NCBI GenBank assembly: GCA_001304015.1
Contig: LJUY01000096.1
Coordinates: 1-5,212 of the forward strand
Source of the DNA: a candidate division Zixibacteria bacterium SM23_81
GTDB lineage: Bacteria; SM23-81
Length of the DNA stretch: 5,212 nucleotides
Reading direction: 5' to 3'
Below, in pieces: positions 2,699 to 5,212 of the stretch. A model generated the notes under the pieces. It had not been told where the DNA came from. It did not search any database and saw nothing but the letters and a program-made list of their open reading frames with translations. A program made the translations under genes and the position numbers. Every line of letters begins with the position of its first letter. The stretch's first letter is position 1.

Positions 2699-5212
2699 TT
2701 ATCGCACCACCATCTCGATGGGCTGTTCCAGACTTCCAATTTCCGGGTTGTAGTATTCGTAGACTCGCGAGGTGGGGGTCTTGGCACGAATGGGGAACTT
2801 GGCCTTGAGTCGGTACGAGAACTCGATGGGGCGGCCGCCCTCAACGTGATCGAGATAGATGATGATCTGTCTTCCGGTGAGGCTGTATCTCTCGATTTCC
2901 CTTCCAACGAGCTCGTTCAGGTCTGGAGCCTGAACCTCAAAGCCTGGTGGTATGCCCAGATCGACGATCACCATGTGGGCAATACCAGGTCGGTTGTTCC
3001 TGATCTTCACCCCACAGGTGACCAGATCATCGGTCTGAAGCTCGGTCTTGTCGTAGTCCACCTCGATGGACAGAAGCTCTTCCGAGGGAGTCGCCTTTCC
3101 GGTCCAGGGGAGATAGTACTTAGTGACCATCTCGTAGAGGGAGCTTCCTTGGCCATCGAAGCGAAGCACCACCTCGTTCTCGCCCTTCCGGGTGAACTCT
3201 TTGAGATCCACAAGCCTGATCACATCCGAGTTTTCCGGCGTGACTCTGAAGGATGCAGCCTCTGTGCCATTGATCCTGATGGTAATCGTGGCATCTATAT
3301 CCTCGACCGACCCCTTGAGGGAGGCGAGGAAAGCCCTTAGGGCCAGGATCGTCCCTTGAGTGGAGCCCCATGTTCCATTTGGATCTTTAGAGCGAACCAG
3401 ATAGGTCAAGACTTTATTGGTCACCTCAGAGTATCTGCCGGATTCGATCAGGGCGCCAGCGACCAGAGCCGTGGCCTCGATGTCGGCGCCTTTTCCCCGA
3501 GAGTGGGTGACGGTGGGAATGTCCGATTTCCAGTATATGGCTCCGTTCTCCTCCACCTTTGTCTCCATCAACTGCTCGAAGGCTCTGGTCGTGCTCATAT
3601 CCTCTCTGTCGTAGGCCACCAGAGCATTGGCACAGAGAGCCAGCATGTAGGGGTCCTCTGCTTTGGCCAGGTTTTCCCTGATATACACAACCGCCCTTTC
3701 CAGCGCATCCCCCCGGTATCCGGTCTCCAAGAGAGACCAGGCGATGTAGGCTGTGGGCAGCAGCTCCGAAGCCTGGATTCTTCCCCAAGATTCACGATGG
3801 AGGTAGTTCTCATCGGGCAACCACGATCCATTGGCCTCCTGCTTGGAGACAAGCCAGCGCTGCGTTCTGGAGATGATATCCGGGTCCACCTCGTAAACCT
3901 CGGACATATCGTCGAATTCCATCAGACCCCAAGCGGTCAGAAGCCTGTTGGCGGGCTCTTTTCCGAACCACTCGAAGCCGCCCCCTTTGACCTCAAAGGT
4001 CAGCAGTCGCTGATAGCCGATGTTGATGTATTCCTCCGCCTTCATCTCGATCTCAGGGGTGATCTGCTCTGTCTGGCGCATATAGTCGAGGATGAGAATA
4101 TTGGGATAGGTCACCGATGAGGTCTGCTCGAAGCAGCCGAAGGGCATGCGCAGCATGGAATCTAAACCGTCCACGATCTGGCTGAAGATTCCGGGAAATA
4201 TCTTCACGAAGATCTTGCTCGCCCCCTCGATGGCTTCAGCGGGAATAGAGAGGGTTTTGGCCAGGTCGGCATTGAGCCGGTCGCTCACCGAGAAGAGCTG
4301 TTCCTGGCCATCGGGGACCACATCGACTTTTCGAGAGATGGCATCGCTTTGCTCTTGACCATAGGCCTTCACCGTCAGCCCATGGGTGCCGATCTCCTGA
4401 GCTCGTATCTTGAAATAGACCACGGAGACCTCGTTTTCGTCCAGGACTTGCTCTTTGGCTGCATCGTCCAAAAGCTCAAACCAAGGCTCGACTTGAAGCT
4501 CTAACCGAACCCTCTGGGAGGTTTTGAGGTAGTTATAGACCGCCACGGGGATGGAGACCTGGTCATTCTGGGTGAGGCTGACGGGGAGGTCCAGGTCCAC
4601 GAAGAAGTCCTGAAAGACGGTGATCCCGACTGTTTTGCTCCCCAGCTTTCCCTGTATGGAAGATGCCGAGGACGTCAGACGCCACTTGGTGATGGAATCT
4701 GCCCATTTAAGATCTAATCGCGCCTTGCCCCGTTCATCGGTGATCAGCGCTGGCTCGAAGACCAGGGTCTCTGGGAAGTACTCTCGGACCCGAGGTTCCT
4801 CTCCCTCTGGCTTTGCGGGACTTGGAGCTGGTAAGGCGGCTTTTTTCATCTCTCCTGGCCTGGCGAGCATTCCCTTGGCCTCAAGCACGACCATGTCCTC
4901 TGCCAATCTCCCTCCCCTGGCAAAGTGTCGAGATGGACTCAGGTCGTCATCGGTCCCCTTGACCTTGTCCGCTCCCCAGCTCAGAATCTGGAACCAGCCC
5001 AGATCCTGTCCCTCAGTGACCACCTCGTAGGGCCTCATCCAGGGATCGAGGAGATCTTGGCCTGTCAACAATCCGGCATCGACAACCACCTGGAGGCCTT
5101 CATCTTTGGTTGGGTATCTTCCCGTATTGCGTCGGTATTGCTCCACTCCGTTGCGCAGCCTCTGCCAATCTCGCTCGATTCTCGACCAGAGCTTCTCCTC
5201 CAGCTCCTTACC
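2699..5212 (-). CDS. Alpha-2-macroglobulin family protein with a GspG pseudopilin-like domain (5' end beyond right edge)
   Basis: The frame is open to the right edge, giving 837 visible residues; the true start lies outside. An internal GTG at 5146 falls inside a domain and is not a credible start. Residues below are counted from the edge. Residues 1-97 resemble the GspG major pseudopilin core: a charged helix, then YRRNTGRYPTKDEGLQ (26-41), LLDPWMRPYEVV (54-65) and ILSWGADKVKGTDDDLS (76-92). A Pro/Ala/Lys/Glu-rich linker follows (about 119-141). The macroglobulin core then runs FPETLVF, WADSITKWRLTSSAS and VFQDFFVDLDLPVS (about 143-240). A thioester domain (about 332-632) carries GCFEQ, with C360 and Q363 able to form the thioester. 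A CUB-like segment comes next, and a receptor-binding-type domain (about 712-837) ends in RVYEYYNPE. The family traps proteases or other proteins covalently, outside the cytoplasm. No signal peptide, bait region or N-terminal MG domains can be judged here. The protein might instead be a pseudopilin with a macroglobulin C-terminal half. Confidence 0.88.
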   Translation of the reverse strand, partial: GKELEEKLWSRIERDWQRLRNGVEQYRRNTGRYPTKDEGLQVVVDAGLLTGQDLLDPWMRPYEVVTEGQDLGWFQILSWGADKVKGTDDDLSPSRHFARGGRLAEDMVVLEAKGMLARPGEMKKAALPAPSPAKPEGEEPRVREYFPETLVFEPALITDERGKARLDLKWADSITKWRLTSSASSIQGKLGSKTVGITVFQDFFVDLDLPVSLTQNDQVSIPVAVYNYLKTSQRVRLELQVEPWFELLDDAAKEQVLDENEVSVVYFKIRAQEIGTHGLTVKAYGQEQSDAISRKVDVVPDGQEQLFSVSDRLNADLAKTLSIPAEAIEGASKIFVKIFPGIFSQIVDGLDSMLRMPFGCFEQTSSVTYPNILILDYMRQTEQITPEIEMKAEEYINIGYQRLLTFEVKGGGFEWFGKEPANRLLTAWGLMEFDDMSEVYEVDPDIISRTQRWLVSKQEANGSWLPDENYLHRESWGRIQASELLPTAYIAWSLLETGYRGDALERAVVYIRENLAKAEDPYMLALCANALVAYDREDMSTTRAFEQLMETKVEENGAIYWKSDIPTVTHSRGKGADIEATALVAGALIESGRYSEVTNKVLTYLVRSKDPNGTWGSTQGTILALRAFLASLKGSVEDIDATITIRINGTEAASFRVTPENSDVIRLVDLKEFTRKGENEVVLRFDGQGSSLYEMVTKYYLPWTGKATPSEELLSIEVDYDKTELQTDDLVTCGVKIRNNRPGIAHMVIVDLGIPPGFEVQAPDLNELVGREIERYSLTGRQIIIYLDHVEGGRPIEFSYRLKAKFPIRAKTPTSRVYEYYNPEIGSLEQPIEMVVR

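Follow-up and report, generated by a model that had tools for sequence, protein, structure and literature searches.

Locus and A2M gene

The window analysed here, that is the whole stretch of 5,212 nt, is one complete contig (LJUY01000096.1) of the 3.07-Mb draft genome of candidate division Zixibacteria bacterium SM23_81, which is 92.6% complete and 4% contaminated. Its main feature is the C-terminal part of an alpha-2-macroglobulin (A2M)-family gene, into which a module resembling GspG, the major pseudopilin of the type II secretion system (T2SS), is built. The gene occupies a single minus-strand frame (positions 2699–5212; 837 codons), stop-free and open at the contig end, past which its 5′ part lies. 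The first macroglobulin (MG) domains, MG1 to MG6a, are missing because the contig ends there, and the architecture was thus read from relatives.

Along the visible protein, with all features on the minus strand, the GspG-like (T2SSG) module comes first (aa 1–95; 4928–5212) and consists of a long helix followed by a small beta domain. Next come a disordered Ala/Met/Pro-rich linker, the probable bait region (aa 96–144; 4781–4927), a YFPET anchor (aa 145–149) and the A2M domain (PF00207; aa 149–239; 4496–4768; Pfam E-value 2e-21), covering the second half of MG6 and the start of MG7. The thioester-containing domain (TED; PF07678, TED_complement; aa 343–628; 3329–4186; E 1.1e-50) includes the thioester motif GCFEQ (aa 359–363; 4124–4138), whose Cys360 is encoded by TGC, and the frame ends with a receptor-binding, C-terminal MG domain (A2M_recep, PF07677; aa 746–824; 2741–2977; E 9e-15). 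Judged from such profiles, the A2M identity of the frame's continuation can be held as sure as the T2SSG identity of the module.

The relatives comprise 79 loci from a contig search, together with sequences from related genomes. Full-length relatives have approximately 1,500–1,900 codons, and in most of them the N-terminus is a signal-peptide-like or anchor segment (judged by eye). In two of the relatives (L002 and L006), Pfam places MG2, MG3 and A2M_BRD domains before the bait slot, and the thioester motif is kept in essentially all A2M relatives. With moderate confidence, we class the window protein as an exported CXEQ-type A2M of the thioester-containing group, with a pseudopilin C-terminal domain in its bait slot.

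A pseudopilin-like module

The module matches Pfam T2SSG (PF08334) over aa 14–90 with an E-value of 7.2e-10 (39.3 bits versus a cut-off of 21), and the three GspG motifs are found in it at N29–L40 (NTGRYPTKDEGL), D56–Y62 (DPWMRPY) and S78–L91 (SWGADKVKGTDDDL). When the module was searched against PDB sequences, GspG entries ranked first (PulG 1t92, E 2e-5). This resemblance is far beyond chance.

Structure prediction led to the same assignment. An AlphaFold2 model of window aa 1–245, built from an alignment with 38 relatives, has predicted local distance difference test (pLDDT) values of 88–98 over aa 1–90. Its module is best matched in VIA-align by 3fu1 (Z 10.0, 94 residues, 2.7 Å), followed by 3gn9 (Z 10.0), 3g20 (9.7), 4lw9 (9.3), 1t92 (8.2) and 5o2y (6.8), and all six of these top chains are major pseudopilins. 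Other type IV pilins rank below them (Z < 5), and then complement C3 and C5, through their MG6b part. The Foldseek ranking is concordant (3g20), its modest E-value of 1.4e-3 being in line with expectation when a small domain lies within a partly disordered model. A preliminary description of this DNA had proposed, at 4922–5212, a GspG-like domain in one frame with an A2M, to be checked against the Pfam T2SSG profile and by comparison of folds; the profile indeed matches, and the model is a pseudopilin and no MG sandwich. In the open-access literature (subscription journals being outside the scope), we found no account of a GspG–A2M fusion, and the preliminary description likewise knew of none.

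On a short contig from a draft genome with an estimated 4% contamination, such a fusion could be spurious, with a gspG gene and an A2M gene wrongly joined during assembly or annotation. However, the same architecture was retrieved from dozens of independent assemblies, including single-contig chromosomes (L006, L011, L015, L019 and L027), and the probability of this explanation is close to nil. A frameshift or false join, which the preliminary description had considered, was likewise ruled out, the fusion recurring in these assemblies. The window genome contains one A2M match and one PF08334 match, both in this gene, and the A2Ms of the same family and phylum are distant only; transfer of the gene, or mis-binning of the short contig, is thus possible.

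Position within MG6 and probable bait region

In relatives, MG6a is followed by a conserved segment of the type [Y/F]E[I/V]HG; between this segment and a PRVREYFPET anchor lies the slot, which holds the module, then the linker. The anchor of relative L002, which is 57% identical to the window protein over the shared part, aligns from residue 722 of human A2M on, and the window model aligns with approximately residues 761–827 of complement C3, after C3a. In the model of L002, MG sandwiches extend to about residue 668 and are followed by a helical connection, the module (approx. 744–839), a disordered stretch (843–887) and MG6b from 897; this model superposes on CD109, C3, C5, A2ML1, A2M and ECAM with Z of 20–25. 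These alignments and the L002 model place the slot at the bait-region or anaphylatoxin position, as the preliminary description had proposed, and on the same basis the predicted place of the module is between MG6a and MG6b.

The linker has pLDDT values below 50 at aa 101–134 and 137–145, and differs in both length and sequence among aligned relatives. Module-less A2Ms of approximately 35% identity, from sampled genomes of the phylum of relative L057, display a short Ala/Pro-rich stretch in the slot, and the module profile found no match in them. Since a short Ala/Pro-rich bait lies at the same place in these proteins, the linker (aa 96–144) is probably the actual bait region, the module being inserted before it. 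The idea of a bait insert, raised in the preliminary description, is thus retained as regards the slot and modified as regards the bait, since it is the disordered linker after the folded module that probably acts as bait. Nor does an MG7-type core come directly after the module, as had been stated: about 50 disordered residues and the second half of MG6 precede MG7. The PRVR preceding YFPET was also tried as a protease site, and was dropped because human A2M has a matching VRKYFPET.

Distribution and slot types

The module is carried by 61 of the 79 relatives with a readable slot, spread over about a dozen phyla, going by the titles of their records. In the 18 others (L035, L036, L042, L044, L048, L051–L054, L057–L059, L061, L067, L071, L072, L074 and L078), the slot is filled by a strongly hydrophobic segment, typically with 6–7 predicted membrane passes. 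Six peptides were used to find the relatives, and one of them (DPWMRPYE) comes from the module itself; module-bearing relatives are over-sampled as a result, and the ratio of 61 to 18 is not a natural frequency.

Twelve acidobacterial relatives (L050, L055, L062–L065, L068, L069, L073, L075, L077 and L079) have two domains in the same slot, first a GspG-like module in degenerate form and then a CarboxypepD_reg-like domain, which Pfam confirms in L068 and which was judged by eye in the others. We had taken this slot for a separate type of insert, which was corrected when the module profile matched the degenerate module upstream of the second domain in 12 of 12.

On the core tree, the slot types (module or hydrophobic segment) require at least three changes. 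Taking the separate membrane-type clades as proof of repeated replacement was dropped, as a single origin was not rejected (approximately unbiased test, p-AU 0.295). Modules and true GspGs form two clades in a short alignment (Shimodaira–Hasegawa-like approximate likelihood-ratio test, SH-aLRT, 98), a split that would fit a single capture.

Two side observations concern individual relatives. Relative L060 has two tandem A2M genes on one contig, and the module profile matches each of them twice, the second, weak match lying upstream of the main match. In five hydrophobic-slot relatives (L035, L042, L048, L053 and L072), a gene resembling extracytoplasmic function (ECF) sigma factors lies directly upstream of the A2M gene, at 3–48 nt or overlapping it, and the A2M starts with a cytoplasmic-looking, anti-sigma-like segment (by eye); in L035, no anti-sigma domain was matched by Pfam at E 0.01. 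These five A2Ms may be transmembrane sensors. Nothing relevant to A2M anti-sigma proteins was found in the open-access literature covered.

Relation to working pseudopilins

In nearly all sampled true GspGs, a GFTLIE-type leader directly precedes the domain. The slot of the 38 module-bearing relatives measured has no hydrophobic segment (Kyte–Doolittle hydropathy > 1.6), the corresponding upstream part of the window protein being cut off, and the module scores 30.1 bits against the TIGR01710 equivalog model, below its cut-off of 88.85. Thereby, a module that assembles as a pseudopilin was ruled out: its relatives have neither leader nor hydrophobic helix and fall in a clade apart from true GspGs. 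The tether to a pseudopilus put forward in the preliminary description finds no support either, given these missing elements and a genome with no other T2SSG match.

A milder form of this idea is that the module docks onto a type IV pilus, a pseudopilus or pilin-like partners, and so places the A2M on the cell surface or the secretion path. The module is folded like a filament subunit, the window's genome encodes PilB-type ATPases and has nine N-methyl pilin matches, and the membrane-like inserts found in the same slot of other members would fit a role in localisation. Yet the hydrophobic N-terminal helix that drives assembly and the prepilin-peptidase site are absent in relatives, and no second PF08334 match that could be a true GspG turns up in the window's genome. 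No gsp or pil operon appears among the recurring neighbours of the relatives either, where one recurring neighbour (five loci) is pilin-like, at a varying distance. We therefore regard docking as quite unlikely.

Predicted calcium site and proposed mechanism

The predicted calcium loop of the module (aa 79–90, WGADKVKGTDDD; 4943–4978) aligns with PGPDGVPNTEDD, residues 114–125 of 3G20. In that structure, calcium is held within this segment by the side chains of D117, T122 and D125 and by the main-chain oxygens of residues 114 and 119 (PMC3396595); D82, T87 and D90 of the window loop stand at the places of the three side-chain ligands. Across 39 sequences, D56, G80, D82, D89 and D90 are invariant, the mean column identity being 33%. 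Calcium binding by the module is thus predicted, and the calcium site of the preliminary description is retained as far as its ligand residues are concerned.

The established scheme for A2Ms is that a protease cuts the bait and is then bound by the thioester that the cut has uncovered (see PMC4498604 and PMC5764988 for summaries). We propose, with a probability of roughly 50%, that the calcium-stabilised module is a wedge, C3a-like in position, which would hold the native state until the bait is cleaved. The bait slot within MG6 would have received a captured pseudopilin C-terminal domain, which in its folded state would serve both as a wedge and as the N-terminal boundary of the bait, where C3 has its C3a domain. 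This module would also space and expose the disordered linker. Outside the cytoplasm, calcium would maintain the module's fold and its resistance to cleavage, so that the cut would be restricted to the linker. A protease cutting there would free MG6, the thioester domain would swing out, and the Cys360–Gln363 thioester could then react with the protease or with a nearby surface.

Several points weigh against this wedge. For every member of the family, it is a prediction that the bait is cleaved, that calcium is bound and that the thioester forms. The hydrophobic slot segment of 18 relatives is no obvious functional equivalent of a soluble wedge, and what is inserted in the slot may have an anchoring or localising role instead. 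Protease-sensitive segments besides the linker may also exist.

The calcium site lends itself to another explanation, in which the module is a sensor whose folding requires the calcium concentrations of the periplasm or the cell exterior and which thereby licenses activation of the trap only outside the cell. Such a role would agree with the invariance of the ligand residues across aligned module-bearing relatives and with the binding of calcium at 33–79 µM by a peptide with a related motif (PMC3396595, a paper not about macroglobulins). However, many exported proteins bind calcium purely for stability and there is no sign of regulation here, which makes a sensor rather unlikely.

The variety of inserts tolerated by the slot (a module, a module plus a CarboxypepD_reg domain as detected by Pfam in L068, or a hydrophobic segment) is also what would be expected of a non-adaptive spacer, a soluble domain that merely lengthens a permissive loop. 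This seems improbable, as none of the 39 sequences departs from the DPW Asp or from the Gly and three Asp residues of the calcium loop, whereas the adjacent linker drifts freely.

Probable selenocysteine at the thioester position

In 11 relatives from 10 genomes (L017, L060 with two genes, L044, L051, L052, L057, L059, L067, L071 and L078), the codon of the thioester cysteine is TGA, and the frame is open on both sides. A hairpin resembling a selenocysteine insertion sequence (SECIS), with 6–7 bp and a 3-nt loop, starts 17 nt after the codon in nine of the 11 TGA genes, the two without it being those of L060; none of 71 Cys genes has a stem of at least 5 bp at that place. When the entire scanned stretch is considered, 9/11 TGA genes versus 2/71 Cys genes have a stem of at least 6 bp (Fisher p 1e-8, a value that overstates independence because the sequences are related).

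All 10 TGA genomes have a SelB match, above the cut-off in nine and split in the L044 genome. Nine of the 10 also have a tRNA-Sec with the anticodon UCA, the best match in the L044 genome being a tRNA-Ser. On the core tree, the selenocysteine (Sec) and Cys states require at least four changes.

These data support a predicted Sec at the reactive position of the TGA relatives and suggest that a selenoester could form there. Tentatively, at slightly less than even odds, we envisage a multi-phylum complement-like family with an exchangeable trigger slot, filled by a putative calcium-binding module, by a module plus a carboxypeptidase-regulatory-like domain or by a membrane segment, and with a selenoester in some members, two module-bearing lineages included. 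We found nothing relevant to selenocysteine A2Ms in the literature covered. If the Sec reading is true, these would be, as far as known, the first selenoester macroglobulins, and their acyl donor should be faster than a thioester; the selenocysteine relatives are arguably a bigger finding than the module.

Neighbouring genes

Downstream of the A2M gene, on the minus strand, lies a VIT–VWA gene of the inter-alpha-trypsin heavy-chain type (375–2552; Pfam VIT E 7e-29, with VWA domains), and a further neighbour on the same side encodes a SixA-like phosphatase. No relative of the VIT–VWA gene was found in any other A2M locus. A functional partnership with this gene was rejected because the linkage is not conserved, and it stands outside the proposed mechanism.

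Comparison with known systems

With GspG, PulG and EpsG of the T2SS (PF08334, TIGR01710), the module shares the C-terminal fold, the order YPT, DPW-x-x-PY, SxGxD...DD and the calcium-ligand residues. It differs from them by a shorter loop before DPW, by its placement within an exported protein of 1,500–1,900 residues, by relatives that have neither prepilin leader nor transmembrane helix, and by its separate clade.

Type I bacterial A2Ms (Escherichia coli ECAM, Salmonella SaA2M) have in common with the window family the MG domains, the bait slot, the CXEQ thioester, the TED and the C-terminal MG domain. Unlike them, the window family has a folded domain inserted in the slot, and its members fit the eukaryotic-type Pfam models MG2, MG3 and A2M_BRD better than the bacterial bMG models. 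In a number of bacteria, though not all, pbpC lies next to the A2M gene; it was not found beside the window gene on the side covered, the other side being cut off. Human A2M, A2ML1, CD109 and insect TEP1 share the fold of the N-terminal two thirds and the logic of thioester and bait, and we know of none with such a domain in its bait slot.

Complement C3, C4 and C5 do carry a folded domain (C3a, C4a or C5a) at the corresponding place. The folds are unrelated, theirs being a disulphide-bonded helical bundle, whereas the window module is pseudopilin-like, has calcium-site residues and contains no cysteine; the three disulphides of the anaphylatoxin fold are thus not found in it. The bacterial and vertebrate insertions are apparently independent. 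The wide spread of the module and the selenocysteine relatives raise the interest of this architecture. Bacteria, like vertebrates with C3a, place a folded domain where a thioester protein has its trigger site, here with an unrelated fold from secretion machinery, and the role of a wedge domain becomes testable outside the complement system.
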